This document shows, one piece after another, positions 1-22,700 of a stretch of DNA of 22,700 nt. The translations under genes and the position numbers were made by a program. Below the pieces are notes generated by a model. The model saw nothing but the letters and a program-made list of their open reading frames with translations, made no database searches and was not told the DNA's origin. The stretch is from a virus: positions 1 through 22,700 of IMG/VR virus record IMGVR_UViG_3300015373_000045. The stretch is one strand, 5' to 3'. How positions within the stretch are numbered: the first letter of the stretch is position 1; every line of letters starts with the position of its first letter.

Positions 1-974
1 CCGAGGGGCCTATCGTCCGGCAGTTGGTGGACCGCCTCCTGTCGGGCGAGTCCCTGTCGGCCCTGGCCCGGTGGCTTAACGAGGAGGGCATCCCCACGCC
101 CTCCACCGAGTACCGCCTAGCCAAGGGGAAAACCCCGGCCAAGTGGACCGGGCCGAACCTGCGGGGCATGTTGAAATCTCCGCACCTGGCGGGGCGCCGG
201 ATTCACCACGGCAGGGACGTGGGCCCGGCCGCGTGGCCTGCCCTGATTCCGGTGGAGAAACATGACCACGTGGTGGCCCTGTTGAATAACCCCGCGCGGC
301 GGCCCAAGGGCGCCACCAACGTCCGTAAGTACCTCCTGCCGGGCATCATGGTTTGTGACGCTTGCGGCCTCGGGGTGCGGTCGGTCCCGGCCTATGTGAA
401 CACCTACACGGGCGGCCATAAGAAGCGGTCCTACCCGGTGCCTGCCGCCTACCGGTGCCCCACCGGCCGCCACACCCAAAGGACCATGGCCACGGTGGAC
501 CGGGTGGTGGAGTTGGCCATCGTGGAACGCCTGACCCAACATGACGCGGCGGGCCTGTTCACCGATGACGCGGCGGCCGAGGAGTTGCTTCGGTTGCGCG
601 ACCAGAGGCAGGCCGTAGCCGACCAGTTAAAGGCCTACGCGGGCCGGGTCCTCACCATGGACCCCGAGGCTTACGAATTGGCCACCAAGGAACTACGCAA
701 ACAGGCTGACCACCTAGACCTAGCCATCGTGGAGGCCACCACCGAGGTACGGCAGGCCTCCCGGGTCCTGCGGGGTGCGACCGGTCCGGGCGCGGCCTTG
801 GCGTGGTTTGGCCCCGGCGGCCCCGATGGGGACCGGGCGGGCGGATGGTCCCTAGCCCGGCGCCGGGCGATTATCGCCGAGGTGGCCGAGGTGAGGCTTA
901 AAGGTGGCCGCCACGGCACCACCCCCAAAGGGTCCCGGTTCGATCCTCGGGACGTGGTGATCCGGTTTCTTTAG
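1..974 (+). CDS. int: Large serine recombinase (integrase), C-terminal part
   Basis: Frame is open from base 1 (first full codon 3-5) and continues the recombinase N-terminus at 22103-22700 if the ends are joined; residue numbers here use that 523-residue protein. Visible are the end of the recombinase domain (GESLSALARWLNEEGIPTPS, then a K.TPAKWT...LRGMLKSPHLAGRRIHHG stretch typical of the DNA-binding recombinase domain), a zinc ribbon with C318, C321, C352 and H357, and a charged coiled-coil-like segment (about 385-440) that in this family regulates synapsis. The protein would integrate and excise the phage at attP/attB using a serine nucleophile that lies in the other part. It is followed by a strong terminator. 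An internal TTG at 24 is not a real start. The family is clear; that the two parts are one gene is inferred from frame and domain continuity. Confidence 0.93.
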   Translation, partial: EGPIVRQLVDRLLSGESLSALARWLNEEGIPTPSTEYRLAKGKTPAKWTGPNLRGMLKSPHLAGRRIHHGRDVGPAAWPALIPVEKHDHVVALLNNPARRPKGATNVRKYLLPGIMVCDACGLGVRSVPAYVNTYTGGHKKRSYPVPAAYRCPTGRHTQRTMATVDRVVELAIVERLTQHDAAGLFTDDAAAEELLRLRDQRQAVADQLKAYAGRVLTMDPEAYELATKELRKQADHLDLAIVEATTEVRQASRVLRGATGPGAALAWFGPGGPDGDRAGGWSLARRRAIIAEVAEVRLKGGRHGTTPKGSRFDPRDVVIRFL

Positions 975-983
975 CGACCACCG

Positions 984-1036
984 AACACCAAACCGCCCGG
1001 CCCCCTCACCATGGGGGACCGGGCGGTGGTGTTTTC
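984..1036 (+). terminator. Rho-independent terminator after the integrase
   Basis: A long stem begins ten bases after the integrase stop: AACACC (984-989) pairs with GGTGTT (1028-1033), and CCGCCCGG (993-1000) pairs with CCGGGCGG (1019-1026). A C-run and a G-run extend the stem inward towards a small loop. GTTTTC follows. It would also stop transcription arriving from the opposite strand. Confidence 0.8.
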
Positions 1037-1126: not shown

Positions 1127-1324
1127 ATGGGCATATCCGAGGAGGATGACGCGGCCATCCGGGCGTACGTGGCCGAGGTGGTGGCCAAGGCACCCCCGTT
1201 CACCCCGGAACGCCTGGAACGGTTGCGCCGCCTCATCAGGCCGCCCCGGACTCCTCGGCCCGAACGTGGCGCGAGAGGCCGTGGGCCGCGCGCCGATGCG
1301 CCCCCAACCCCTGAGGGTGGCTGA
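1127..1324 (+). CDS. Small conserved-type hypothetical protein (65 aa)
   Basis: The N-terminal 40 residues (MGISEEDDAAIRAYVAEVV then KAPPFTPERLERLRRLIRPP) form an acidic helix, a PPFTPE turn and a basic helix. This resembles short actinobacterial and phage proteins often found near excisionase or integrase genes, for which I know no function. The C-terminal 25 residues are Arg/Pro-rich and low in complexity. The 3' end overlaps the opposing zinc-finger gene by 89 bases, which is unusual but leaves both conserved-looking parts intact. A perfect hairpin directly precedes the ATG and no good ribosome site is visible, so expression may be low or leaderless. Confidence 0.55.
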   Translation: MGISEEDDAAIRAYVAEVVAKAPPFTPERLERLRRLIRPPRTPRPERGARGRGPRADAPPTPEGG

Positions 1325-1808
1325 ACTGCTTTTCGCACACGTCGCACACGTAAGGGGTGGGCACTCCGAGGGCCTCGGCCAGTGACTGGTCATGCCTTGC
1401 CCGAACGTGGACCCCGAGGGCGGAACGGGTGGTGGAAACATGCGTGCACCCCTCCACCGGGCAGGGCCACCCCTCGGCCGTGTGCGGAACCTCTAGGGCC
1501 GCCGTGTTGGCGCCTTTCCTGCGGGCCCGGGTGGGCATGGGGGCCGCGTGGGCCTGTGCGTCGGTCCTAGGGGTGTTTCTGGCGGCCGTGGAGGCCTTGC
1601 GCCGGGGACCCTCGGTTACCCGGCCCACCGCGTCAAGCATGGCGCCTAGGTCCACGAGGGTTTTCCCGTCATCGGTGCACAGGTCCACCTCCCACGTGGT
1701 GGCCCTAGGCGCGCCCGGCGGCCTGATGCTCACCTCCCACGATTGCCCCTCCACCTCCTCCTCGTGGAGTTGGTGCGCGTCACACACGGTGACGATTTTC
1801 TGTGCCAT
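1236..1808 (-). CDS. Lsr2-like N-terminus with two C2H2 zinc fingers
   Basis: A 190-residue protein. Residues 2-65 (KIVTVCDAHQLHEEEVEG, then TTWEVDLCTDDGKTLVDLGA) resemble the dimerisation domain of Lsr2-type nucleoid proteins, where an E/W-x-IDL strand precedes a helix. A basic, Ala/Arg-rich linker (66-110) follows. Finger 1 is C116-x4-C121-x12-H134-x4-H139 and finger 2 is C155-x2-C158-x12-H171-x4-H176; both have the spacing of classical C2H2 fingers, with a Leu at the usual core place. The protein probably binds DNA, perhaps as a silencer or regulator in lysogeny. ATG 1808 is preferred over an in-frame GTG at 1811. The upstream gene ends at 1811, so the two are coupled. The fingers are seen; the Lsr2 relation and function are inferred. 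Confidence 0.75.
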   Translation of the reverse strand: MAQKIVTVCDAHQLHEEEVEGQSWEVSIRPPGAPRATTWEVDLCTDDGKTLVDLGAMLDAVGRVTEGPRRKASTAARNTPRTDAQAHAAPMPTRARRKGANTAALEVPHTAEGWPCPVEGCTHVSTTRSALGVHVRARHDQSLAEALGVPTPYVCDVCEKQFSHPQGLGAHRRAAHGLSRHVRAEESGAA

Positions 1809-1810
1809 CA

Positions 1811-2167
1811 CTAGACCGCCTTTTGAGTCGTGGTTTCAAGGATCCGAGTCAAGGCCTCCAACCGGAACACGTCCCGGGTCAGGCCATCCTTATTCAGCAC
1901 CTTGGATGCTAGATAGCCCTCGGTGTACCTGTATCCGTTGCGGAGGACGTGGCCGTGTGAGTTGAGCACCTGGACCCTGACGGTTCCGCAGTTGCGGCAC
2001 CGTAGGGAGCGGTCGAAAATCTGTTCGCGGGGGTCATACGTGGCGGTGTGGTGGCGCCACTCGTGGCCCAACTCTCGGCAGTGAAGTTGCTTGTTTGAGA
2101 GTCCATGGGCAAAAGCGTGCACGTCCCGAATGTTCGGGTCCTCGGCCGCGCGCCTAGTTGGTCGCAT
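1811..2167 (-). CDS. Cys/His-rich phage protein, probable zinc binder (118 aa)
   Basis: The sequence has C30-x4-H35-x-W37 (CRELGHEW) and a C57-x2-C60 pair (LRCRNCGT), a plausible single zinc site, followed by a basic and aromatic region (RNGYRYTEGYLASKV). Similar short proteins with an LGHEW...C..CG pattern are common in actinophages without a known function. ATG 2167 was chosen because GGGAGGGA lies about ten bases upstream; a TTG-started extension to 2242 has no such site. It lies between the repressor terminator and the zinc-finger gene, with its stop codon touching the start of the next gene, so the two form one minus-strand operon. Confidence 0.75.
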   Translation of the reverse strand: MRPTRRAAEDPNIRDVHAFAHGLSNKQLHCRELGHEWRHHTATYDPREQIFDRSLRCRNCGTVRVQVLNSHGHVLRNGYRYTEGYLASKVLNKDGLTRDVFRLEALTRILETTTQKAV

Positions 2168-2296: not shown

Positions 2297-2650
2297 CTAG
2301 GCCGAGGTGGGCAGTTTCTTAACTGCCCTAGCGGTGGCTAGCACTACCTCTAGTTGGGCGTCGGTCAGTCCCTCGGCGTAAGCCATGAGGGCAGTTACGA
2401 GGCGCCTAGGCCCGTCGACATCCTCCCCGACAATGCCTCTCACGGCCGCCTCGCGGACTGCCTCGTAAGGCAGGCCCAAACCTTTGGCTAGTCCCTCCAA
2501 CGTGGCCGGGCGTGGGAAGGCGCGGCCCTTGTTAATCAACTCCGAGAGTGTCTGGCGACTCAACCCCCCTCGCGCCGCCACCGAGGCAAGGGTGTCTCCT
2601 GTCTGTTCGCAGTGGATCCGCAGCAACGCGGCTAGCGGTGTTTCGTCCAT
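2297..2650 (-). CDS. XRE-family HTH protein, candidate immunity repressor (117 aa)
   Basis: Residues about 18-63 are a Cro/C1-type helix-turn-helix: GDTLASVAARGGLSRQTLSEL, then a basic wing and LEGLAKGLGLPYEAVREAAVRGI. The 54 C-terminal residues are mostly helical (LVTALMAYAEGLTDAQLEVVLA), probably for oligomerisation. It is far shorter than lambda-type CI and has no LexA-like peptidase part, so RecA-driven self-cleavage is not expected. ATG 2650 is chosen because AAAGG stands seven bases upstream; a longer in-frame GTG/ATG extension enters the control region. It is divergent from the early operon and has its own terminator, the usual layout for a phage master repressor. The domain call is firm; the role is inferred from position. 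Confidence 0.82.
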   Translation of the reverse strand: MDETPLAALLRIHCEQTGDTLASVAARGGLSRQTLSELINKGRAFPRPATLEGLAKGLGLPYEAVREAAVRGIVGEDVDGPRRLVTALMAYAEGLTDAQLEVVLATARAVKKLPTSA

Positions 2651-7427: not shown

Positions 7428-7780
7428 TGGGCGCCCGGTTGGTCACCGAGGCCCTGGCCGCCGCGCGGTGGTGCGCCCTCGTGGAGGGGCGGCCCCTCAC
7501 CGGCCGGGCCCGGATGGTCCTCGTGGTGATGGCCCACCGCGCCCTAGATAACGAGGGGCGGAATGGGCAACCGGCCCGTACCTATTTCGCGGGGTGGGAA
7601 TACCTCGCGCTAATGGCCTTGGATTACCGGGAATGGGTGCGGGGTGGCGCATCCCATAAAGCGGTGATGCGGTGTATATCCGAATTGCAGGAACGTGGAC
7701 TAATTCGGGTGTCTAAGAAATTCGGCCGCCTCACCGGGTATGAAGTCCTGCCCCCGAGAGGCCATCCGTATGACACCTGA
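7427..7780 (+). CDS. Winged-helix replication-initiator-type protein (117 aa)
   Basis: LTGRARMVLVVMAHRALDNEG..GQPARTYFAGWEYLALMAL, then GASHKAVMRCISELQERGLIRV, then FGRLTGYEVL. A helix-turn-helix with a typical 'x-x-I-x-x-L-x-x-x-G-L-I' recognition helix and a beta wing places it with phage RepO/DnaD-N-like wHTH proteins. No helicase-loader or primase domain follows. Four copies of TGTCCCAC-type half-sites begin four bases after its stop, so it is the natural candidate to bind them, as lambda O binds iterons next to its own DNA-binding domain. GTG 7427 overlaps the methylase stop. Confidence 0.75.
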   Translation: MGARLVTEALAAARWCALVEGRPLTGRARMVLVVMAHRALDNEGRNGQPARTYFAGWEYLALMALDYREWVRGGASHKAVMRCISELQERGLIRVSKKFGRLTGYEVLPPRGHPYDT

Positions 7781-9905
7781 AACTGTCCCACGCGGTGGGA
7801 CATCCCGTGTCCCTCATGTGGGACATACGGTGTCCCACATGTGGGACATGTGGTGTCCCACCTATAGAGGAACCAACGAACCAACGAACCAATGGAGGAA
7901 CCACCACGTACGTCAGGTGATTGGCTTAGTCGCGCGCGCCGAAAGAATGGACAACCGCATTGACGGGGTGGATATTCGGGGGGTGCCTAGCCGCGCGTCA
8001 CGCGCATCCCACCGCAACCGGGTGATAAACGGAACGCCGGTTAGCACCGAGACATGGCGGGAATTACGGAACAGGTGGCAGCAACGATTACCAACCGAAT
8101 GTCCTCGGTGCGGTAATCAGATAAACCCGTGGGATGCGTGGGACCTGGACCACGTGGGCGAACCGGTCGCGCTCGGTGGCGGTGGCCACGACATCCGGCC
8201 CGCGCACCGGGCGTGCAACCGGGGGGCCGGGGGGGCCCTCGGTGGGTTGGTGCGCGCGCTGGAAAATAGTTCGCGCCTCGGTGCGGAAATTCCGGGCGCC
8301 GATTTTTTGACAGTGGCGCAATCTTCGTTGGGGACTGCGGGCCTCGTTTCTACCCAAAACCACTCGACTTTGGCCGACACGGAACCGGACGACGCGGAAC
8401 CGGCCGTGGCCACGCTGGACCCGTCCGATTCGGCCTGGGACGCCTGCCCGTGGTTGGCGCCTCTCCTGGAGATTCCCCCCGATGCGACCTGGCCGCGCCT
8501 GATGAGCGGCCCGCACCCGGACGCGGTGGGCAGTTTCGGACCCGAGGCCGAGGAGTGCGCCGCCGGTTTGGGGATCACCCTGCGGTGGTGGCAGGCCTTG
8601 GCCCTCTACCGCCTCCTGGAGCATGACCGGGACGGTGCCCTGGTGTGGGTGGATGCCCTGGTGTCCACGGCCCGGCAGGTGGGCAAGTCGGTCCTTCTGG
8701 TGGTCCTGGCGTGGTGGCGGTTGCACCAACGGGACCGGTTCGGGGAGGCCCAACTGGTCATGCACACCGGGAAAGACATTTCGGTTTCGGCCGAGGTTCA
8801 GCGGCGGGCCCGGGTGTGGGCCCGGGAGTTGGGGATGCCGACCCGGGAGGCCAACGGCGCCCAGCAGATCGGGACCGCCGGGGAGGTGGACCGGTGGATG
8901 GTCCGGGCCCATCAGGCGGTGTACGGCTATGCCTCCACGCTGGCCCTGGCCGATGAGGCATGGGCCCTCCCGGCGGCCGTCGTGGAGGAGGGCCTGGAAC
9001 CGACGCTGGCGGAAACCTCCAACGGCCAACTGGTGTTGTTCTCCACCGCGCACCGCAAGTGCACCGGCCTGATTCCGGTCCGCCGCGCGGCCCTCCTGGA
9101 CCGGTGGGCCACCCCCGGCGGAACCTCGCTGCTGCTGGAGTGGTCGGCCACGCGCGGTTCCCAGATCGGGGACCGGGACGCGTGGCGCGCGGCCAGTCCG
9201 CATTGGGGCCCGCCCCGGCAGAGACTCATGGATGCGAAACACGCCCGGGCCTCGGGGGGCCAGTCGGTGGACCCGGACGAGGACGACCCGGTGGAATCGT
9301 TCCGGTCCCAGTTCCTCAACGTCTGGCCGGTGCGCCGCATCGTGTCCAGCACCCGGGCCGAGGTGTTGGTGGAGGCCGACCAGTGGAACGCGGCGGCCGA
9401 CCTGTTCGCCCCGGTGCCGGACGGCCCGGTGTGTGTGGCGGTGGAGGACTTCTACGGCCTCGGGGCGGCCGGTGCGGCGGCGGTCAACCTGCCGGACGGC
9501 CGGGTGTTGGTCTGGGGGGACGTGTTCCCGACCCGGGCCGAGGCCTACACGTGGGCCAGTTTCACCGCCGGGCGCCGGGAGGGGTCCCGGTTCCTCCTCG
9601 GCGCGTCCCTGTCGGTGGCCGAGGCGGCCGAGGCAACCGGACTGTCCCCGGTGCAGTGCGGCACCGCCACCACCTACGCGGCCCTTCCGGCGGTCCGGGC
9701 GTTGGTCCGGTCGGGCCGGTTGGTTCATAGCGCGGATGAGGCCCTGACCGCACAGGTGGCACAGGTGCGCGTGGTGCCCACCTCCAACGGGGGCCTGACC
9801 CCGGCCCACCGGGGGATCCGCTCGGACCTGTTGCGGGCCATGGCGTGGGCCGCGCATGACACGGCCGAACCGGTGGCCGCGCCCCTGGAGTTTTTCGTTT
9901 ACTGA
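7770..9905 (+). CDS. terL: HNH endonuclease-terminase large subunit fusion
   Basis: One uninterrupted frame. From ATG 7770 it is 711 aa: HNH at about 100-152 (C111-x2-C114, DLDH at 125-128, H140, H146, N150), a linker, then a terminase ATPase with Walker A-like STARQVGKS (299-307), Walker B LALADE (395-396), the LFSTAH coupling motif (423-428), and an RNase H-like nuclease starting near VAVEDFYG. It would package phage DNA, with HNH and terminase nuclease acting at the ends. HNH genes normally sit beside terL as separate genes. ATG 7770 has GAGAGG eight bases upstream and overlaps the wHTH stop, but codons up to about 7970 look non-coding, so ATG 7947 is a good alternative. All starts keep HNH joined to terminase. 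Confidence 0.9.
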   Translation: MTPETVPRGGTSRVPHVGHTVSHMWDMWCPTYRGTNEPTNQWRNHHVRQVIGLVARAERMDNRIDGVDIRGVPSRASRASHRNRVINGTPVSTETWRELRNRWQQRLPTECPRCGNQINPWDAWDLDHVGEPVALGGGGHDIRPAHRACNRGAGGALGGLVRALENSSRLGAEIPGADFLTVAQSSLGTAGLVSTQNHSTLADTEPDDAEPAVATLDPSDSAWDACPWLAPLLEIPPDATWPRLMSGPHPDAVGSFGPEAEECAAGLGITLRWWQALALYRLLEHDRDGALVWVDALVSTARQVGKSVLLVVLAWWRLHQRDRFGEAQLVMHTGKDISVSAEVQRRARVWARELGMPTREANGAQQIGTAGEVDRWMVRAHQAVYGYASTLALADEAWALPAAVVEEGLEPTLAETSNGQLVLFSTAHRKCTGLIPVRRAALLDRWATPGGTSLLLEWSATRGSQIGDRDAWRAASPHWGPPRQRLMDAKHARASGGQSVDPDEDDPVESFRSQFLNVWPVRRIVSSTRAEVLVEADQWNAAADLFAPVPDGPVCVAVEDFYGLGAAGAAAVNLPDGRVLVWGDVFPTRAEAYTWASFTAGRREGSRFLLGASLSVAEAAEATGLSPVQCGTATTYAALPAVRALVRSGRLVHSADEALTAQVAQVRVVPTSNGGLTPAHRGIRSDLLRAMAWAAHDTAEPVAAPLEFFVY
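7784..7861. repeat. Palindrome (iteron) array, candidate origin or packaging site
   Basis: Three dyads and a half-site. TGTCCCAC-GCG-GTGGGACA at 7784-7802; TGTCCCTC-AT-GTGGGACA at 7808-7825, one arm mismatch; TGTCCCACATGTGGGACA at 7831-7848, perfect; TGTCCCAC at 7854-7861. Starts are 24, 23 and 23 bases apart. The array begins four bases after the wHTH replication-type gene. Local base composition is less GC-rich just downstream, up to about 8110. It fits iterons of a phage origin; terminase-binding repeats are the main alternative. Confidence 0.8.
7871..7894. repeat. 8-bp tandem repeat, three units
   Basis: AACCAACG twice (7871-7878, 7879-7886) and AACCAATG (7887-7894), directly following the palindrome array. 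The 24 bases keep the terminase reading frame. Confidence 0.85.
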
Positions 9906-10235: not shown

Positions 10236-11510
10236 ATGCCGTCCTTACAGACTCCCCGGCGCCGGGCGCCCGGACGCCCCCGACGCGTGGCCGGACTGAC
10301 CACGGGCGTACCCCGTAGCCAATGGGCGTTCCTCACCGGGGACGCGTACCCGGCCACCCCCTACCCGGCCACCGAGGCCGACGCCATGGGGATGCCCCCG
10401 TTCGGGCGCGGGGTGGCCCTCCTGGCCAACGCGATAGCGGGCACCGACTGGCACGCGGCGCGGTGGGACCCCTCGGTGGGTGTCTCGGTGCGGCTACCGG
10501 ACCAACCCTTGGTAGTGACCGACCCCGACCCCGAGACCACGCCATGGAACTACCGGTGGGCGGCCGTGGAGGATTTGATTCTGTACGGAAACCATTTCGC
10601 CATTCCGTGGGGTTTCGACGCCCGGACTAGCCGGGCCGCCTCACTGCTTCCGGTGGCGGCCGATTCGGTGGCCATCCTGGCCGACCCGTTTACCGGCGCC
10701 TGGCAATGGGTGGTGAACGGCAATCACCTGGACCCCGAGGGGGGTACGTGGGACCTGTTCCACGCGTCGGCCGGTAACCGGTCGGGGGAGGTGCTCGGCC
10801 GTGGTGTCCTGTCGCAATACGGCACCTCGCTAGGTGGCTACGTGGCGGCCGAGACACATTCCGGGGACTACTTCGCAGGGGGCGCGCTACCCCCGGCGGT
10901 TCTCCAGTCACCCACCCAACTGACCCAACCGCAGGCCGATGACCTGAAAACCAAATGGCGGGCCATGACCAACACCCGGGAACCGGTGGTGTTGCCCATG
11001 GGCTACGTACTGACACCCGTGGTGTCCAATGCGGAAACGTCCCAATTGGTGGAGTCCCGCCAATGGAACGCGGCCCTAGTGGCCATGATCCTCGGAATCC
11101 CCAATTACAAGTTGGGACTCTCGGGGCCGTCCATGACTTATCAGAATGTCGAAATGGCGGATATTGAATTCGTCCGGGATTCGGTGGACCGGTACGGGCA
11201 ACCGCTATCCGAGGCCTTTACGAAATGGCTACTGCCGCGCGGCACCTCCCTGGAATGGGACTACGCGGGCCGGATGCGGGCCGACCAGTCCACCACCGCC
11301 AACGTGCTCACCACCTACACGGCCGCCGGGATCCTCACTAAGGACGAGGCCCGCGCGGCCATCGGACGGCCGCCCCTGGACACCACGGCCGAGGAGAACA
11401 CCACCCCCGAGGGGGTCCCCGAACTAGTCGGCCCCGGCCGGGTCGTGGAGTCGGCCGCCGCCCAACCGCCCTCGGAAGGGGTGACCAGTGATGCCGGAAC
11501 TACTGATTGA
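10236..11510 (+). CDS. HK97-type portal protein (424 aa)
   Basis: The usual order is seen: N-terminal MPPFGRGVALLANAIAGTDW helix, an EDLILYGNHFA segment, WDLFH, LGRGVLSQYGTSLGGYVAAE, AGGALPPAVLQSP, LKTKWRAMT, and the SQLVESRQWNAALVAMILGIP...SMTYQNVE stretch that is nearly invariant in HK97 portals. The dodecameric portal sits at one head vertex, threads DNA and binds the terminase. The length of 424 is typical. Its last 20 bases overlap the protease gene, a usual coupling in this head module. ATG 10236 has only a weak ribosome site. Confidence 0.95.
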   Translation: MPSLQTPRRRAPGRPRRVAGLTTGVPRSQWAFLTGDAYPATPYPATEADAMGMPPFGRGVALLANAIAGTDWHAARWDPSVGVSVRLPDQPLVVTDPDPETTPWNYRWAAVEDLILYGNHFAIPWGFDARTSRAASLLPVAADSVAILADPFTGAWQWVVNGNHLDPEGGTWDLFHASAGNRSGEVLGRGVLSQYGTSLGGYVAAETHSGDYFAGGALPPAVLQSPTQLTQPQADDLKTKWRAMTNTREPVVLPMGYVLTPVVSNAETSQLVESRQWNAALVAMILGIPNYKLGLSGPSMTYQNVEMADIEFVRDSVDRYGQPLSEAFTKWLLPRGTSLEWDYAGRMRADQSTTANVLTTYTAAGILTKDEARAAIGRPPLDTTAEENTTPEGVPELVGPGRVVESAAAQPPSEGVTSDAGTTD

Positions 11511-12066
11511 GCGCGCGGCCCCTGCCCTGGAACCGGTGGGGGACGGCTGGACCGTGGAGGGCATCGCGGTCCCCTACGGGGTGCCACACCGGGTCAGCGA
11601 TGACGGGGTGAGTTACTACCGGGAAGGGTTCACCCCCGGCGCTTTTGGCCGGGACGTGGCCAAGGGGGGCCGGTGGGTAAACCTCATGCTCGGCCACCAC
11701 GGGGATGACGGGGACCGGTTCCTAGGCCGATGCGTGGGCCTCGTGGAGGAGGTGGCCGGACTGCGGGCTACGTTCCGCCTGGACCGCACCCATCCGCAGG
11801 CCGAGGCCGCCCGGGCCGGGGAGTTGACAGGCTGGTCGGTCTCGGCCCGGGTATACCGGTCCCGCACCGAGGGCCCGGCCGATGACCGGACCGTGTGGCG
11901 GGAGGTGTGCGGCCTGTCCCACGTGGCGGCCACCGCGCAACCGCAATACGCGGGGGCCGGGGTCCTCGTGGCCCGGGAACACACCCTGGTGAACGCGCCC
12001 TCACCCACCCCGCACCGGGACGAAATCCGGGCGTGGCTGGACGGCCTCCCGGCCCGGCCGCAATGA
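11491..12066 (+). CDS. HK97-family prohead protease (191 aa)
   Basis: TVEGIAVPYGVPHRV, YREGFTPGAF, LMLGHHGDDGDRFLGR and ELTGWSVSARV match the prohead protease family (peptidase U35): the histidine is H69 or H70 and the catalytic serine S116. It matures the head by cutting scaffold segments from the capsid protein, whose delta-domain-like N-terminus is encoded at 13143. ATG 11491 is used; GTG 11488 is an equal alternative. It overlaps the portal by 20 bases and the next gene by four. Confidence 0.92.
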   Translation: MPELLIERAAPALEPVGDGWTVEGIAVPYGVPHRVSDDGVSYYREGFTPGAFGRDVAKGGRWVNLMLGHHGDDGDRFLGRCVGLVEEVAGLRATFRLDRTHPQAEAARAGELTGWSVSARVYRSRTEGPADDRTVWREVCGLSHVAATAQPQYAGAGVLVAREHTLVNAPSPTPHRDEIRAWLDGLPARPQ

Positions 12067-12812
12067 CCACGATTCGGCACGCCCATTCGTCATCGCTGTA
12101 TTCCAACTCCCCCGATTCCCTGGCCAATCAGGTGGAACGGGCAGTGGAGGCCGATGACCCCGACGCCACGACCCTGACCTTTACCGAGGTGGGATCGGAC
12201 AAACGGACACAAGTGCTAAAGGATGCCGACCCCGATAACTGGGCCGCGTGGGTGCCTAATCAGTCGGACGTGGGGATTATGTGGCGCAAACATGTCTATT
12301 CCCCGGTGTGGAAGGAGGCCCACAAACTCACCGATAAAGTCTGGACCGATGGACAGGGGCGGAAACATGAGACATGGTGCGCCACGGCCCTTTTATCCCA
12401 CGATAAGGAGGGCCTGACCATATTCCTATCGGTGTGCCACCTGCCAAGCCATGTCCAGAACGGGGATAAGTTCTACGATAATGCGCAGGCTAAAGCGTGG
12501 AAATCGGCAGTAAACGGGTGGTCCGATTACTGGAACACCACCCGGAAAACCGATAAGCCGGACCTGGGAATGTTGGTCGCGGACTGGAATATCGACGTCC
12601 ATTCGTCCCATTGGATGGGTTACATGACCGACAAATTCCCGTCCATGTATTGCACGTGGGCCGGGGACCGGGAACCGCCCAACGATAAGGGCACCCATGG
12701 TAACCGCCTGATTGACTTCACGATGGCCACCAACAAAATGACCAAGGCGAAATTGCTAAAGGATGACAATTCGTCGGACCACCGGCCCTATGGGGAGGCC
12801 CTGCCGTTGTGA
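12063..12812 (+). CDS. DNase I-like (EEP superfamily) nuclease/phosphatase (249 aa)
   Basis: The catalytic set of the endonuclease/exonuclease/phosphatase fold can be read in order: E42 in LTFTEVGSDKR, H126 in SVCHLPSH, D174 and N176 in LVADWNIDV, D218 in LIDFTMAT, and D239-H240 in SSDHRPYG. All key positions are present, so it should be an active metal-dependent phosphodiesterase on DNA, RNA or a phosphate ester. It begins in an ATGA overlap with the prohead protease and lies inside the head operon, an unexpected place. No signal peptide is seen. The fold is confident; substrate and role unknown (DNA-end trimming, host DNA degradation or exclusion are options). Confidence 0.85.
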   Translation: MTTIRHAHSSSLYSNSPDSLANQVERAVEADDPDATTLTFTEVGSDKRTQVLKDADPDNWAAWVPNQSDVGIMWRKHVYSPVWKEAHKLTDKVWTDGQGRKHETWCATALLSHDKEGLTIFLSVCHLPSHVQNGDKFYDNAQAKAWKSAVNGWSDYWNTTRKTDKPDLGMLVADWNIDVHSSHWMGYMTDKFPSMYCTWAGDREPPNDKGTHGNRLIDFTMATNKMTKAKLLKDDNSSDHRPYGEALPL

Positions 12813-12949
12813 ATTCCACGGGGCGGCCGTGGTTGGATTTGCTTATTGCGGCCCTCGGTAGTGGAACCGGGTCCTTTGCCCTCGGGGTGGTGGTCGGTTA
12901 TCGGTGGGCGCGGCGCCGCCACGACACCGGCCGCCACGTAAAGGACTGA
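12809..12949 (+). CDS. Small single-pass membrane protein (46 aa)
   Basis: GTG 12809 overlaps the nuclease stop (GTGA). After a short N-terminus comes one membrane-length stretch (LLIAALGSGTGSFALGVVVG), followed by a basic end YRWARRRHD, so the C-terminus is expected in the cytoplasm. It is unrecognised. Possible roles are a holin-like or exclusion peptide, or a partner of the adjacent nuclease; nothing in the sequence decides between them. Confidence 0.6.
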   Translation: MNSTGRPWLDLLIAALGSGTGSFALGVVVGYRWARRRHDTGRHVKD

Positions 12950-13142
12950 CCGCCGGGGAGAAACGTGTTTCTGACCGGGCCCCCTAGACGATTCCGAATA
13001 GCGCGCGTACGTTCCGAAACGAGAACCGCCACCCGGCGCCCGGATTACCGGCCACCCCGTCCCGGAACGGACACCCCGGAATCTGACGAAACAGGGCTAG
13101 CCGCCGCCCGGTCGATATCCATTCGACCCCCGAGGGGTAATC
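12950..13142 (+). other. Spacer before the capsid gene
   Basis: 193 bases without a convincing gene. It holds a short dyad AGAAAC-GT-GTTTCT (12959-12972) just after the small membrane gene, which may form a weak hairpin, and GAGGGG seven bases before the capsid ATG. An internal promoter raising capsid expression could lie here, but no clear -35/-10 is visible. Confidence 0.4.
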
Positions 13143-14324
13143 ATGGGCGCCTATCTGGACCGCCTGAATGCGCAGTACGACGAAATCCGGGAAGGTATCG
13201 ACGCGCTAGTCAACCGCGCGGCCGAGGAGAACCGGGAAGTAACCGAGGCCGAGGCCGCACAGGTGGAACGTGACCGGTCCCGCCTCACCGACCTACAGGC
13301 CGGAATTGAACACTATTCCGCCCTGGAAACACAGAATGGCCGGGTGGCCGAATTGCGCCGGACTATTCCGGCCGCGCAAACCACCCGGACCACCACCGAT
13401 AAGGAACCGGAATACGACATCACCCGGGAATTCCCGAATGTCGGGGAATACGCGGTGACGCTTCACCGGGCCATGGCCCTTAGGGACCCGGCCGCGCGGG
13501 AGAAAATCGAGCGCGCCACCGCCCACCAACTCCTGGCGGATAACCCCGGAATCGTGCCCCGGCCCGTCGTGGGAACGCTGCTCAACGACATTGATTCGGC
13601 GCGGCCTTTCATCAATTCGATTGTCCGGCGGCCCCTTCCGGCCGGGACTTTCGACCGCCCGGTAATCACTCAGCATGTGGCCGTGGATAAGCAAGCGGCC
13701 GAGAAGACTCTGACCGCTAGCCAGAAAATGGTTATCGGCAAGATTCCGGTTGCGGCGGACACGTTCGCGGGCCACCTGAATATCTCCCGTCAGGACGTGA
13801 AATGGACTTCCCCGGGAATCCTCCAAATCGTTTTCGAGGATTTCGCGGCGGTTTATGCCAACGCCACCGATAACGAGGCCTGCGAGGATTTCGCGGCGGG
13901 AGTCACCAACACCGCCCCGATTGCCACGTGGGACGCGGCGGGAATCTTTGACGCCGTGTTTACGGCGGCCGCTAACGCCATGGGCACCGGGTCCAATGCC
14001 CCGGATACCGTGTGGGTGTCCCCCGACATTTGGGGCCGCATGGGTGGCCTGACCACGGCCGAGTCCCCGCTGTTCCCGGGAATCAACTCCGGGGGCGGTT
14101 CGGCCCCGGTGGGGATGCGCCTCGTGGTCGATAAGAATTTCCCGGCCTCCACCATGATTCAGGGGCCGTCCCGGTACGCCGAATGGTATGAGGACCTTGA
14201 CGGCCTTATGCAGGTTGGTGAACCGGACGTGCTCGGCCAGTTGGTGGGCTACGCCGGTTACGGGGCTTTTGTAAACGTCCTCCCGGCCGCGTTTACCAAG
14301 TTCACTGTTCCGGCCCCGGTGTAG
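13143..14324 (+). CDS. HK97-type major capsid protein (393 aa)
   Basis: Residues 1-70 are a charged coiled coil (YLDRLNAQYDEIREGIDALV, REVTEAEAAQVERDRSRL), like the HK97 delta (scaffold) domain removed by the protease. The capsid fold follows: RPFINSIVRRPLPAGTFDRP (N-arm and E-loop), VAADTFAGHLNISRQDVKW, ILQIVFEDFAAVYANATDN, VWVSPDIWGRMG, GMRLVVDKNFPA, and YEDLDGLMQVGEPDVLGQLV. Such proteins assemble the icosahedral head. GAGGGG precedes ATG 13143. Scaffold and capsid are in one chain, so no separate scaffold gene is needed. Confidence 0.95.
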   Translation: MGAYLDRLNAQYDEIREGIDALVNRAAEENREVTEAEAAQVERDRSRLTDLQAGIEHYSALETQNGRVAELRRTIPAAQTTRTTTDKEPEYDITREFPNVGEYAVTLHRAMALRDPAAREKIERATAHQLLADNPGIVPRPVVGTLLNDIDSARPFINSIVRRPLPAGTFDRPVITQHVAVDKQAAEKTLTASQKMVIGKIPVAADTFAGHLNISRQDVKWTSPGILQIVFEDFAAVYANATDNEACEDFAAGVTNTAPIATWDAAGIFDAVFTAAANAMGTGSNAPDTVWVSPDIWGRMGGLTTAESPLFPGINSGGGSAPVGMRLVVDKNFPASTMIQGPSRYAEWYEDLDGLMQVGEPDVLGQLVGYAGYGAFVNVLPAAFTKFTVPAPV

Positions 14325-14327
14325 CCG

Positions 14328-14684
14328 ATGACCACCACGCCGGGCCTACCGATCCCCGAACCGGCACCCCCGACCCTGGACCTAGCCACGGTCCGGGGAT
14401 ATCTAAAGGTGCCCGCCACCAATCTCAGCGATGAGGATTTGCAGAGGATGGTTGACGCGTGTTCGGCCGATCAATGGGCCCGGTGTGTGTGGGATCCGGT
14501 CGACTATCCGGCCACGTTGGGGCAGGCCCTGTTGCGCCGCGTGCAACGTGAGGTTGCGGCGCGAAACCTGCCCCTCGGCATGGTCGGTTTGGACGCGGCT
14601 GAGTACGGGCCCACGTCCCTGCCGAACCTGGACGCCCTCGTTAACGAGCATGAGAGGGCCTACCGGCGGCAGGTGCTCGCATGA
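14328..14684 (+). CDS. Head-tail connector, gp6-like adaptor (118 aa)
   Basis: LDLATVRGYLKVPATNLSDEDLQRMVDACSADQ is the helical N-terminus typical of HK97 gp6-like connectors, followed by the basic helix LGQALLRRVQREVAARNLPLG and PNLDALVNEHERAYRR. It forms a ring below the portal. It starts four bases after the capsid stop and overlaps the next gene by four bases. Confidence 0.85.
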   Translation: MTTTPGLPIPEPAPPTLDLATVRGYLKVPATNLSDEDLQRMVDACSADQWARCVWDPVDYPATLGQALLRRVQREVAARNLPLGMVGLDAAEYGPTSLPNLDALVNEHERAYRRQVLA

Positions 14685-15073
14685 GTCTCGCCCGGCCACA
14701 GGAGGCCACCGAACAGTCCACCCGGCCCGCGACTACCCGGGCCGCGATTGTGGCCGCCCTCGGGGCCGTTCCGGGCCTCGTGGCCACCTCCTCGGCCCCC
14801 GACCAAGCAACCGCCGGGGCCGCCTGGCCGAGGTGGATTCAAACCACGTACGACGGCCACCTCTGCACCCTGGCGCGCGACCAATACGACGTATTGGTCA
14901 CCCTGCCAGCGGACTACGCCCCCGCGACCGTGGATGAGGGGGACGCCTACCGGGACACGGTGGGCCTGGCCCTGGTCGGCCTCGGCCGGGTGGCCTATGC
15001 CGAACCGGTGTCAATCGCATTTCAGGACCGCCAAACCATGCCGGGACTCAGGTTCCGGTTAGAGATTTCGTAA
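14681..15073 (+). CDS. Head-tail joining / tail terminator-like protein (130 aa)
   Basis: An ATGA overlap joins it to the connector gene. The N-terminus is helical (TRAAIVAALGAVPGLVATSS); the rest shows strands ending in LVGLGRVAYAEPVSIAF and MPGLRFRLEIS, the layout of small head-tail stopper or tail terminator proteins between the adaptor and tail tube genes. The assignment rests mainly on gene order; the sequence has no diagnostic motif. GGGGAA follows its stop as the ribosome site of the tail tube gene. Confidence 0.65.
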   Translation: MSLARPQEATEQSTRPATTRAAIVAALGAVPGLVATSSAPDQATAGAAWPRWIQTTYDGHLCTLARDQYDVLVTLPADYAPATVDEGDAYRDTVGLALVGLGRVAYAEPVSIAFQDRQTMPGLRFRLEIS

Positions 15074-15083
15074 GGGGAACCTA

Positions 15084-15551
15084 ATGACCGTCAACCCTCC
15101 CGAACCGCCCGTGTGGCCCCTCGGCCCCGGCACCCTGACCATCGGCGAAACCGGTACGCCTATCGACGTGTCGTGCCTGGTCAATAACGCGGTGATTTCG
15201 GCTGACAAGGATGAGGGGGACTCGACCACGAAACTTTGCGGAACGGTCCGCCCCGGCGCCGTCACCTATGCCTATTCCCTGTCCGGGAACATGGATACCG
15301 ACGTGGGCGAGTCGGCCGGATTCTTCGCCCTGTCGCAGGACCACGCGGGGGAGGTAATGGACTTCACCTTTACCCCCAACACCGATTCCGGCACCTCGGC
15401 CGCCGGGACCCTCACCATTGACCCGCTGGACTTTGGTGGTGACACCACCGGAGAAACCATGGTGTCTGATTTCGAATTCTCCATTGTTGGTAAGCCCACC
15501 TACACCTATGGCACCCCGTTGGGCATGGTGGAGGAATCCGAGGTGGCATGA
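15084..15551 (+). CDS. Major tail tube protein (155 aa)
   Basis: An all-beta protein: GTLTIGETGTPIDVSCLVNN, KLCGTVRPGAVTYAYSLSG, GFFALSQDHAGEVMDFTFTPN, AAGTLTIDPLDFGGDTTGE, DFEFSIVGKPTY. The pattern G-x-L-x-IG...VS.LV.....S....E, a central 'SQD(H)AG..M.FTFTP' and 'F.F.IVG.P' is typical of actinophage tail tubes. Many copies stack to form the non-contractile tail. GGGGAA stands five bases before ATG 15084. The stop overlaps the following gene. Confidence 0.85.
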   Translation: MTVNPPEPPVWPLGPGTLTIGETGTPIDVSCLVNNAVISADKDEGDSTTKLCGTVRPGAVTYAYSLSGNMDTDVGESAGFFALSQDHAGEVMDFTFTPNTDSGTSAAGTLTIDPLDFGGDTTGETMVSDFEFSIVGKPTYTYGTPLGMVEESEVA

Positions 15552-15919
15552 CCCAAAATGACTTCCGGGCCGAGGTGGAGGGGGCCGAGGAACTGGACCG
15601 GTCCCTAGGTCGATTCGCGGATGACATTAAGGAAATGCCGGACGCGGGGACCAAGGCGGGACAGGCGGTAAAGGTGCGGGCCGCCTCCCTGGCCCCGAAA
15701 GACACCGGGGCCCTGTCCCGGTCCATTCGGGCCGATGCGACCGGGGCCGAGGTAACGGTGGGAACCGATATCCCGTACGGCCCCTATCAGGAGTACGGGA
15801 CTGTCACGGTCCCCGCCTCCCCGTATCTACGGCCCGCATTGGAGGCCGCCACGGCGCAAATCGTGGAGGCCTATACCGGGGAAGTCGAAACGAAACTAGG
15901 ACAGGTGAAAGGGGCATAA
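15548..15919 (+). CDS. HK97 gp10-like tail completion protein (123 aa)
   Basis: FRAEVEGAEELDRSLGRFAD, AVKVRAASLAPKDTGALSRS, YGPYQEYGTVTVPASPYLRPAL. The motif AP.DTG.L..SI...... PY...E.GT...PA.P.LRPAL is the signature of the gp10-like family, which completes the tail or head-tail joint. ATGA overlap with the tube gene. Finding it after rather than before the tube gene is a minor order change. Confidence 0.9.
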   Translation: MTQNDFRAEVEGAEELDRSLGRFADDIKEMPDAGTKAGQAVKVRAASLAPKDTGALSRSIRADATGAEVTVGTDIPYGPYQEYGTVTVPASPYLRPALEAATAQIVEAYTGEVETKLGQVKGA

Positions 15920-15921
15920 CC

Positions 15922-16248
15922 ATGGCGGGCGAGGTGCGACTGGTGGCGCCCCGGGTCAGGGTGATCCGGGAGAACGGGACCGAACCGCTAGAGATTCAGG
16001 CCGATAACCGGGACCTACTGGCGTGGGAATCCACCCGGATTAGACACAAGTGGCCGAAATTCGATGAGGCCCCGTTTAAGTGGATGACGTTTATCTCGTG
16101 GTCAGCCGCGCGGCGGGCCGGGGAAATCGACGCTTCCCTTACGTATGAGGCTTGGGAATCGTCGGTGCTATCGGTAACCGACACCCGGGCGGATTCCGAA
16201 TTGGGGGAATCGGGAGGCCCTACGGGCGAGGAACCCGAAACCGGCTAA
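15922..16248 (+). CDS. Tail assembly chaperone, short form (G-like, 108 aa)
   Basis: It sits between tail structural genes and the tape measure, the fixed position of tail assembly chaperones. It is acidic at the C-terminus (SELGESGGPTGEEPETG) and mixed alpha/beta before that (WMTFISWSAARRAGEID.SLTYEAW). These proteins coat the tape measure during tail assembly. AAAGGGGC precedes ATG 15922. The frame ends at 16248, but a -1 shift at 16203-16209 would give a longer form. Confidence 0.8.
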   Translation: MAGEVRLVAPRVRVIRENGTEPLEIQADNRDLLAWESTRIRHKWPKFDEAPFKWMTFISWSAARRAGEIDASLTYEAWESSVLSVTDTRADSELGESGGPTGEEPETG

Positions 16249-16382
16249 TCGTGGAAATCGCGGTGGCCACCAATACCGGGCCCGGGGATTGGCGGGAGGA
16301 ATCGGACGAAATTCTGGCCACCGTTTTAGACGTACTGGAATCCAACGCGCGGGAGGTGAAACGCCGTGGCAAACACCGCTGA
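15922..16382 (+). CDS. Tail assembly chaperone, long form by -1 frameshift (GT-like, about 153 aa)
   Basis: Reading 96 codons to GAA 16207-16209 and then moving back one base continues in an open frame to TGA 16380-16382. The added part is IGRPYGRGTRNRLIVEIAVA, then DWREESDEILATVLDVLESN and a basic end. The DW..E.DE.LATVLDVLE helix is what the T part of such chaperones looks like in actinophages. The downstream frame has no ribosome site of its own in the right place. It ends 17 bases into the tape measure gene. The two frames are seen; the shift itself is inferred from the family, in which it is conserved. Confidence 0.75.
16203..16209 (+). promoter_or_regulatory. Candidate -1 slippery heptamer GGGGGAA
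   Basis: In the zero frame the codons are TTG-GGG-GAA, so the heptamer is G-GGG-GAA. The P-site GGG re-pairs perfectly after a -1 slip; the A-site pairing is imperfect. It lies inside the overlap of the two chaperone frames. Confidence 0.55.
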
Positions 16383-18072
16383 CCTAGTGGTGCGCGTAAT
16401 CACCGAAACCGAGGACTCCACCTCCAACCTGAAAAAGTACGCGTCGCAATTCTCCTCGGTTAAGGGCGCGGTTAAGGCCGCCGCCGTCCCGGCCGCCGCC
16501 GCCCTCGTGGCCCTCGGGGCCGCCGCGATATCCGCCGGGAACGCGGCGGCCGATGACGCACAGGCGGCCGCCCTCCTGGCCCAGAACCTCAAGAATTCGA
16601 CCGGGGCCACGCAGTCCCAAATCGACGCCACCGAGGCCTATATCGACTCCATGGCCAAGGCAACCGGCGTTGCGGATGACCAACTCCGCCCCGCTATGGC
16701 CACCCTGGCGCGCGGTTCGGGGGACGTGACCCGGGCCCAAAAGGACCTAGCCGTTGCCCTGGACGTGGCGGCCGCCACCGGTACGGACGTGGAAACCGTG
16801 TCTAAGGCAATTGCCAAGGGCTACGGCGGGACCACCACGTCACTTAAGAAACTGGTCCCCTCCCTGGACGATGCCACCCTGGCGTCCGGGGATATGAGCG
16901 CCATCATGGCCGATTTGGCCAAGCAAACCGGGGGGTCCGCCGCCGCCGCCGCTGACACGGCCGCCGGGAAAATGGAACGCATGAAAGTGGCCATGGGGGA
17001 GGCGCAGGAGGAAATCGGGGCCGCCCTCCTACCGGCCATGTCCGCGCTGGCCGGGATGGCCGCCACCCTGGCCGGTTTCATCCAAAAGCATCCCCGTATC
17101 TTCATGGCGGCCGCTATCGCTATCGGTGTCCTGGCCGCCGCAATCATGGTGGCCAATGTGGCCATGACCGTGGCCGCTATCGCCGAAGCGGCCATGTTGT
17201 GGCCGATCCTGCTCATCGTGGCGGCCGTGGCGGCCCTGATTATCGTGATCGTACTGATTGTTAAGCATTTCGATACGCTTAGCGGTATCGCGGTGGCCAC
17301 GTGGGACGCAATCAAATCGGCCGCCGCCGCCGCCCTGAAATGGATAGAGGGGCACTGGCCCCTGATTCTGGCTATCCTCACCGGGCCTATCGGTATTGCG
17401 GCGGCCCTGATTATCACCCATTGGGAGCAAATCAAATCGGCCGCCAGTCGGGTATTCGACGCCATCAAATCCGCGTGGAATTCCATGGTGGGCGCCCTAA
17501 AGTCCGCCGTATCCGGCCTCGGCGCATTCCTGTCTAAGCCTTTTGACGTGGTGGAGGCGGCCGTATCGGCCGTGTCTTCGGCCATTGACGCCATGATTAA
17601 GTGGATTAAGAAAATCGACCCACCTAATCCTTTTGCGGGCCCGTTTAATACCGCAAAGAAGGCGGCCGATGACGTGGCCACTGCTGTCGACGCCATGATT
17701 AAGTGGATTGCAAAGGTGGTGGCCCCGCCCGGTTTCGCGGGTCCATTCGACACGGCCACCACCGCCATTAACGCGGCCTCTGCCGCAATTGAGAAACTAA
17801 TCAATTGGCTTAAGTCACTGTCCAAATTAAAGGTCCATGTTCCGCATGTTCCTAATCCGTTCGGCCGCAGTGCGGCGCCCGCCACCGCTATGCCTTCTGT
17901 GGCCGGGTATGCGGTCCCCCGAGGTATTGCGCCTGCCTCGGGGGGCCGTACGGCGGCCACCGCGCCCGTGGTTATCAACGTGACCGGGGCCCTGGACCCC
18001 GAGGCCGTGGCCCGCCAAATCAACCGGATCCTTTCCGGCCATAACCGCCGCGTTGGGTTGAGTGCCACATGA
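16366..18072 (+). CDS. Tape measure protein (568 aa)
   Basis: A GTG start at 16366 overlaps the chaperone long form. N-terminal VRVITETEDSTSNLKKY, Ala-rich coiled coils (50-240) containing the conserved tape measure stretch SMAKATGVADDQLRPAMATLARGSGD, a long hydrophobic zone at about 248-300 (several membrane-length helices), and C-terminal repeats with IDAMIKWI.K...P.FAGPF. The protein sets tail length and may form a channel during DNA entry. At about 0.15 nm per residue the tail would be only near 85 nm, so this is a short-tape siphovirus. Two copies of a 19-base repeat, 102 bases apart, lie in the C-terminal part. Confidence 0.95.
   Translation: MANTADLVVRVITETEDSTSNLKKYASQFSSVKGAVKAAAVPAAAALVALGAAAISAGNAAADDAQAAALLAQNLKNSTGATQSQIDATEAYIDSMAKATGVADDQLRPAMATLARGSGDVTRAQKDLAVALDVAAATGTDVETVSKAIAKGYGGTTTSLKKLVPSLDDATLASGDMSAIMADLAKQTGGSAAAAADTAAGKMERMKVAMGEAQEEIGAALLPAMSALAGMAATLAGFIQKHPRIFMAAAIAIGVLAAAIMVANVAMTVAAIAEAAMLWPILLIVAAVAALIIVIVLIVKHFDTLSGIAVATWDAIKSAAAAALKWIEGHWPLILAILTGPIGIAAALIITHWEQIKSAASRVFDAIKSAWNSMVGALKSAVSGLGAFLSKPFDVVEAAVSAVSSAIDAMIKWIKKIDPPNPFAGPFNTAKKAADDVATAVDAMIKWIAKVVAPPGFAGPFDTATTAINAASAAIEKLINWLKSLSKLKVHVPHVPNPFGRSAAPATAMPSVAGYAVPRGIAPASGGRTAATAPVVINVTGALDPEAVARQINRILSGHNRRVGLSAT
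17589..17709 (+). repeat. Direct repeat inside the tape measure gene
   Basis: CGCCATGATTAAGTGGATT occurs at 17589-17607 and 17691-17709, 102 bases (34 codons) apart. The protein copies are DAMIKWIKKIDPPNPFAGPF and DAMIKWIAKVVAPPGFAGPF, and a third, diverged copy (AIEKLINWLKSL) follows. This is in-frame module duplication in the tape measure. Confidence 0.85.
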
Positions 18073-21813: not shown

Positions 21814-21834
21814 GCCACGGCTAGACCGGTCCGG

Positions 21835-21872
21835 CATTGGGAGTGCGCCGATTCGTCAGGACACTCCCAATG
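21835..21872. repeat. 38-bp inverted repeat, candidate attP
   Basis: CATTGGGAGTG (21835-21845) and its exact reverse complement CACTCCCAATG (21862-21872) flank a 16-base spacer. The centre falls on the dinucleotide TC at 21853-21854, which is not self-complementary. Known attP sites of large serine integrases (for example phiC31) have about 10-bp arms in a span of about 40-50 bp around such a core, and often lie beside int, as here. It also overlaps the likely int promoter, so an operator is the main alternative. Confidence 0.55.
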
Positions 21873-21876
21873 ACGG

Positions 21877-21930: not shown

Positions 21931-22106
21931 GCAATATTGTTTGGAGTCAAGAGGCCGGATGGCATGACGGCCCGGAGGCGGAAGTCACCATGGACGGGGG
22001 CCGCCTCACGGCGGCCCCGGCCCCGGGCCGGTGCGCCGACCACCCCGCGTATGACCCGGACTACTGCCCGGTGTGCGGCACCGCGCGCGAAATCGGCCGC
22101 GCGTGA
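21927..22106 (+). CDS. Small zinc-ribbon-like protein upstream of integrase (59 aa)
   Basis: RCADHPAYDPDYCPVCGTA gives C36-x2-H39-x7-C47-x2-C50, a compact four-ligand metal site at the C-terminus; the N-terminal half is polar (MSNIVWSQEAGWHDGPEAEV). GTG 21927 is chosen because GGAAAGG stands six bases upstream; an in-frame ATG at 21912 is possible. Its TGA overlaps the integrase GTG at 22103, so it is translated with int. It could be a partner or directionality factor of the integrase; there is no direct proof. Confidence 0.6.
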   Translation: MSNIVWSQEAGWHDGPEAEVTMDGGRLTAAPAPGRCADHPAYDPDYCPVCGTAREIGRA

Positions 22107-22700
22107 CCACCACCGCCACCCCGCCCCGGGAGTCGCACACGCGGCCCCGGGGCGGGGCCGTTGCGTCATATGAACGGATATCCAAGTTCGCCGAGGACCG
22201 CACCGGGACCGAGGTGGAACGGGGCGTGGACCGGCAGTACGCCGACGCGTGCAAGGCGGCCGAAATTCTCGGCCTCGGGGCGGTGGAACGGTTCACCGAT
22301 AACGACCGGTCCGCCTCGGCGTTCCGGACCAAGGAACGTGAGAGGTGGGAGGAGTTGCTGGAGGACATAGGCGCCGGGAAGGTGTCGCATGTCCTGTTCT
22401 GGCTATTCGACCGGGCCTTTAGAACCACCGATGACGCCTCCCGGTTCCTGGCCGCCTGCCGGGCCCACGGGGTCCTGATTGTGCAGACCGGGGGGTGGTC
22501 CCCCATGGTGGTCAACCCCTCCGATCCTGACGCGGTTTACAACATGAAACAGGCCGCGAATCAGGCGGAATACGAGGTGGCCAAAATGTCCATGCGCCAA
22601 CGGCGGCACAAGGAGGCCATGGCCGAGGCGGGGGTGAGTCACGGCGGGGGCCGCCGGTTCGGCTACCTGCCCGGCATGACCGACGAGCATCCCACCGAGG
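22103..22700 (+). CDS. int: Large serine recombinase (integrase), N-terminal part
   Basis: GTG 22103 overlaps the preceding stop. The resolvase domain is complete: the nucleophile S27 in SYERIS, TGTEVERGVDRQYADACKAA, FTDNDRSASAF (family motif NDRSAS), VLFWLFDRAFRTTDDASRFL in place of the common 'DRLGR', and the E-helix NMKQAANQAEYEVAKMSMRQ then RRHKEAMAEAGVSHGGGRRFGYLPG, which leads into the recombinase domain. The frame is still open at base 22700 with one base of a codon left, and continues at base 1. It cleaves and religates attP and attB through a covalent 5'-phosphoserine bond. Expression is from the promoter at about 21877. Confidence 0.95.
   Translation, partial: MTTTATPPRESHTRPRGGAVASYERISKFAEDRTGTEVERGVDRQYADACKAAEILGLGAVERFTDNDRSASAFRTKERERWEELLEDIGAGKVSHVLFWLFDRAFRTTDDASRFLAACRAHGVLIVQTGGWSPMVVNPSDPDAVYNMKQAANQAEYEVAKMSMRQRRHKEAMAEAGVSHGGGRRFGYLPGMTDEHPTE

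Follow-up and report, generated by a model that had tools for sequence, protein, structure and literature searches.

In phages with 3' cohesive ends of the HK97 type, the portal, protease and capsid genes follow one another in that order and an HNH protein is linked to terminase; in HK97 itself a separate HNH protein, gp74, promotes cos cleavage by terminase (PMC9410871). The authors of PhageTerm described how such ends appear in sequencing data: contigs of cos phages end at cos if only packaged DNA is present, 3' overhangs are lost during library preparation, and, if ring or prophage DNA is present, cos may be placed at any position in the contig (PMC5557969). Phages of Actinobacteria provide the nearest described integrases. 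Those of the Gordonia phage William (gp40), the Rhodococcus phage Jflix2 (gp51) and the Thermobifida phage P1312 each combine a Resolvase and a Recombinase domain in one protein, and the Jflix2 integrase adjoins repressor-type genes. Very small tailed phages are also described from Actinobacteria, namely the Microbacterium cluster EE phages with genomes of 17.0-17.5 kb (PMC7302621).

The DNA that we analysed (the window) is the whole of IMG/VR record IMGVR_UViG_3300015373_000045, exactly 22,700 bases without flanking sequence. The record carries no recognised end repeats and no completeness value. The window has the portal, protease and capsid order of the HK97-type phages, and in its family an HNH part is likewise linked to terminase and contigs appear to end at one point without overlap. 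Unlike in the HK97-type phages, the HNH and terminase parts lie here in one frame with the presumed cos inside that frame and, again in contrast to those phages, a separate small terminase was not recognised in the window. The integrase has the two domains found in William, Jflix2 and P1312, adjoins a repressor-type gene as in Jflix2, and is approximately 26-32% identical to cultured actinobacteriophage integrases among the matches listed; unlike theirs, the gene is broken at the ends of the record, a break that does not exist in nature. The window phage is larger than those of cluster EE, at about 22.7 kb, and encodes an integrase and a repressor; among the matches listed, none pointed to a sequence relation with cluster EE. 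Our main reading, to which we assign a probability of roughly 0.9, is that the window gives, as one turn of a 22,694-bp ring cut within the integrase gene (int), the whole genome of a small temperate phage that is siphovirus-like and probably infects a soil actinobacterium, and that the DNA in the virion would be linear with cohesive ends.

A sequence-only reading of the window had proposed that its two ends cut an integrase gene, and the domains found at the ends bear this out. The piece at the right end (22103-22700, plus strand) has a GTG start, and its frame (22103-22699) runs to the right end without a stop; residues 40-178 matched the catalytic Pfam Resolvase domain (PF00239) with 48.3 bits (cut-off 23.3). 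The piece at the left end (1-974, plus strand; frame 3-974) has no stop ahead of the one at 972-974 and contains the Pfam Recombinase domain (PF07508; 48.0 bits, cut-off 21.1) and a zinc ribbon/coiled-coil region. The integrase gene, made up of the last 598 and the first 974 bases of the window, is whole and uninterrupted in three related contigs (G2, G5 and G6; approximately 44-53% identity) and in a fourth, L062. When joined, the protein reads Resolvase and then Recombinase, the usual order, with the junction between the two domains, in agreement with the earlier claim that the join falls at the boundary of the catalytic and DNA-binding parts. The product is also free of stops, as had been stated: both possible joins are in frame, giving 523 aa when the ends are placed together seamlessly and 521 aa when a six-base overlap is removed. 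A profile comparison of the joined protein with serine integrases, which the earlier reading had suggested, recovered both Pfam domains in order, and a family profile of seven relatives gave 567.5 bits for the 521-aa join and 564.9 bits for the 523-aa join, compared to 239.5 and 315.3 bits for the separate halves. These comparisons show that the end pieces, by sequence, make up a single large serine integrase gene, and the cut inside it is the arbitrary start point of the record. Membership in the large serine integrases is assigned from the domains; attP x attB recombination is predicted only. A single-sequence search with the joined integrase gave no matches; a query with an alignment did.

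The two joins differ in how they treat CCGAGG, which is present at both ends of the window (1-6 and 22695-22700, plus strand) and is the only suffix-prefix match between them. A match of at least six bases arises for 0.19% of random point pairs from the same sequence. The earlier suggestion that CCGAGG may be a six-base overlap, removable without loss of frame, is favoured by the family profile. The joined protein had been given as 523 residues, of which the in-frame join stands and the size does not: the 521-aa version aligns with relatives without gaps. The distance from the FG motif to the next VR-type motif is 15 residues in G5, G6, L062 and the 521-aa join, and 17 in the 523-aa join. In a multiple alignment, four further relatives (G2, L066, L045 and L054) were also gap-free against the 521-aa join, and a two-residue insertion was needed only by the base-for-base join. 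If the ring were nevertheless 22,700 bp base for base, CCGAGG would be a genuine repeat and the integrase would have 523 residues with an extra Ala-Glu. This join is in frame and produces an E-x-E pattern, TEAEG, like the RESEA and REDEA of relatives; however, its insertion would be unique to the window when all family relatives are gap-free against 521 aa, and its score against the family profile is 2.6 bits lower. We consider a 22,700-bp ring unlikely. Because the spacing in relatives, the gap-free alignment and the family profile favour the 521-aa join, the ring is most likely 22,694 bp. The comparisons strongly indicate that CCGAGG is one sequence counted twice, the right copy most likely being the same bases as 1-6; with one copy removed, the spacing becomes that of the relatives.

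Relatives also allowed the map to be examined beyond the integrase. A search with the portal protein found 13 related contigs, and a search with a capsid alignment found 44 loci in IMG/VR. Two of the related genomes, G2 (21,789 bp) and G6 (21,930 bp), have nearly every window gene in the same order around the ring. In both, the tail and lysis genes are followed by int and then by a reversed repressor block, unbroken where the window ends lie, and the ends of both contigs fall within a frame (7740-9905) that the window carries without a break. The window and G2/G6 each close the other's gap, and hence the map is a ring. The junction region has similar lengths in the three genomes (3065, 3260 and 3363 bp), and the window therefore lacks no gene there. 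Across the ends, the genes follow one another as they do in G2 and G6, with the integrase gap-free. The gene order of these two near-complete relatives is shown by the alignment of maps to be a rotation of that of the window, and the joining of the ends into a closed ring map is a secure prediction. The earlier claim of a circular genome of about 22.7 kb holds as a statement about the map, on the strength of the intact integrases and collinear relatives; the wording that the genome is circular does not, as the contig ends of relatives point to linear packaged DNA.

The ends would look the same in an integrated copy bounded by attL and attR, in which CCGAGG would be a duplicated att core inside int, present once in the ring, and integration would split the gene. 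Host sequence is absent from both ends, where integrase coding sequence was found in place of host flanks or attL/attR, and the cut parts the catalytic from the DNA-binding domain, so that the integrase would lose its own gene. Serine integrase attachment sites normally lie beside int and not inside it, which also counts against an integrated copy. We regard this arrangement as extremely improbable.

The overlap of six bases is shorter than the end repeats ordinarily used to call a genome closed. Under the CheckV rule, end repeats shorter than 20 bp do not count, and assembler leftovers typically have k-mer lengths, e.g. 55, 77 or 99 (PMC8116208). With its end repeat of six bases, the record falls short of this rule, and an overlap of this length is not a usual assembler leftover, which counts against the closed-ring explanation. 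The exact junction pattern, with a gap of 0-6 bases, was absent from all other IMG/VR contigs. A gene split by the ends of a record can, together with relatives, prove closure below the 20-bp limit, and a record without recognised end repeats is thereby resolved into the entire genome of a small temperate phage, with its size defined. The window phage species was assembled more than once, because L015, a 5.4-kb contig of another IMG/VR record, is nearly identical to the window over 10952-16383 (5424/5432 bases).

Upstream of int is a 46-bp dyad (21831-21876) with 15-nt arms that are 93% complementary and a 16-nt centre. It is a candidate attP, unconfirmed and "attP-like" only, and neither G2 nor G5 showed a counterpart at the corresponding position. 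A terminator-like hairpin (983-1036, plus strand; 23-nt arms, 78% complementary) lies just 3' of int, and hairpins downstream of int are also present in G2, G5 and G6. In the ring, the reversed block after int contains a repressor-like HTH gene (2297-2650, minus strand; Pfam HTH_31, PHROG transcriptional repressor) that has the same position in G2, G6 and L062. Also beside int is a gene (1236-1811, minus strand) for a predicted C2H2-type zinc-finger protein (Pfam zf-C2H2, 1.3e-6), unusual in phage and conserved in G2, G6 and L062.

The frame in which G2 and G6 end (plus strand, 721 aa) combines an HNH endonuclease part (PHROG HNH endonuclease, 4.7e-5) with a terminase large subunit (PHROG terminase large subunit, 8e-22). 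Contigs of relatives that start inside this frame do so mostly around one point. With start residues extrapolated by hand from tblastn matches, 17 of 26 such starts fell within 42 codons (p ~2e-15 vs an even spread), and L003 and G2 have an identical start base although they come from different metagenomes. Both G2 and the larger G15 (25,772 bp) have terminase first and HNH last, with no overlap between their ends, as expected for 3' overhangs. The right end of G2 equals the window up to GTTGGG at 8332. This cos-like point is crossed only by the window and G14, and is where other family contigs extending that far come to an end. The clustered starts and the two full-length genomes without end overlap may reflect fixed ends shared by independent genomes. 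From this pattern we infer a likely cohesive-end (cos) region at 8303-8360 (plus strand); the packaged DNA would probably be linear, and its cohesive ends would lie near 8.33-8.35 kb in the window. The distance from TGGG to TACCC is 18 bases in the window and G14 and 14 bases in G2, which would fit a 4-base loss, but other relatives differ, and no overhang length common to the family could be derived. An exact window/G2 match of 77 bases at the cos-like region is by itself a weak sign of special conservation, since other exact stretches between the two reach up to 116 bases.

Clustered starts could also arise as assembly breaks at a variable linker, with the packaged DNA cut elsewhere or by a headful mechanism. 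The linker that follows HNH is indeed variable in length, and the contig starts at the presumed cos differ by tens of bases among relatives. Against this are the concentration of starts in so few codons, the start base shared by L003 and G2 from different metagenomes, and the fact that G2 and G15 each run from the cos-like point to the same point without overlap. We think assembly breaks a rather unlikely cause of the clustering.

Because the window crosses the cos-like point, unpackaged DNA (ring, concatemer or other) would have supplied at least part of the assembly. The source might have been tandem copies or a replication concatemer instead of a free ring, given that a concatemer also reads as a closed map and also crosses the cohesive-end site; nothing here separates the two. 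The integrase and repressor genes make a ring stage certain sometime, not necessarily in this sample. We put a concatemer source at somewhat under even odds.

Several properties of the terminase frame bear on where the gene lies relative to the packaged ends. It is open to the first base in 15 of the 15 left-end contigs tested (869 codons, 0 stops), whereas the remaining frames contain 19 and 33 stops (P ~3e-12). In four contigs (L011, L036, L038 and G15) there is no ATG, GTG or TTG before the terminase motif WPRLM, and the protein sequence ahead of WPRLM is conserved among relatives. G14, which is the same as L081, also has HNH and terminase in one frame (678 aa). Since the frame is open to the contig starts, start codons are missing in four contigs, and the HNH and terminase parts are continuous in the window and G14, the terminase gene probably spans the packaged ends, starting on one side, continuing on the other, and becoming whole only after they are joined. 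We find it fairly likely that only the ring or concatemer carries an intact HNH-terminase fusion gene, that the cos-cutting enzyme would be made only after end joining, and that its own gene would carry the cut site. A remote relative, a contig of an Ilumatobacteraceae MAG, likewise combines terminase with an HNH-like motif in a single frame. One reading frame also contains HNH endonuclease and terminase large subunit in L072 (3986-5992).

According to the model that we favour, the linear DNA of the virion would have its cohesive ends inside the HNH-terminase gene. Following injection, the ends would anneal, and the resulting ring would restore the gene. The integrase would then join the ring to the host chromosome via attP near int. 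Among the papers searched, there was no precedent for genes spanning cos or for HNH-terminase fusions, which does not prove absence. Cohesive ends inside the terminase gene are directly testable on virion DNA, and it is the cos-spanning frame that merits specialist attention; the split-integrase finding is ordinary but correct and useful.

The predicted gene set comprises terminase, portal (10236-11510, plus strand; PHROG, 2.2e-48), protease, major capsid (13143-14324, plus strand; PHROG, 1.6e-40), major tail and tape measure (16366-18072, plus strand; PHROG, 3.2e-28) proteins, an exonuclease, an Erf-like annealing protein, a methyltransferase, the repressor and the integrase. As judged from these predicted genes, the window is a new small temperate siphovirus-like phage. 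Its capsid protein is approximately 30-32% identical to cultured mycobacteriophage capsids among the matches listed. A soil actinobacterium as host is a guess, based on the high G+C content and on the closest cultured matches being phages of Actinobacteria. Capsid and terminase profiles found no close prophage in GTDB genomes, where the Ilumatobacteraceae MAG contig was the one remote phage-like contig, and a capsid protein search of plasmids found no match.

The analysis outlines an uncultivated phage family of 44 capsid-bearing IMG/VR loci (L003-L061), whose shared capsid proteins are mostly 54-100% identical. Three members are represented over their full or nearly full length, at 21.8, 21.9 and, more distant, 25.8 kb. 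Two other window genes recur in this family. Between the protease and capsid genes, 12060-12812 looks to be of the endonuclease/exonuclease/phosphatase type, with no Pfam or PHROG match; the gene has the same place in G2, G5, G6 and L015, and is found after the tail genes in G15. The product of the gene at 5952-6326 matches the Pfam archaeal Holliday junction resolvase family (Hjc, 2.8e-9) and is 77-79% conserved in G2 and G6.
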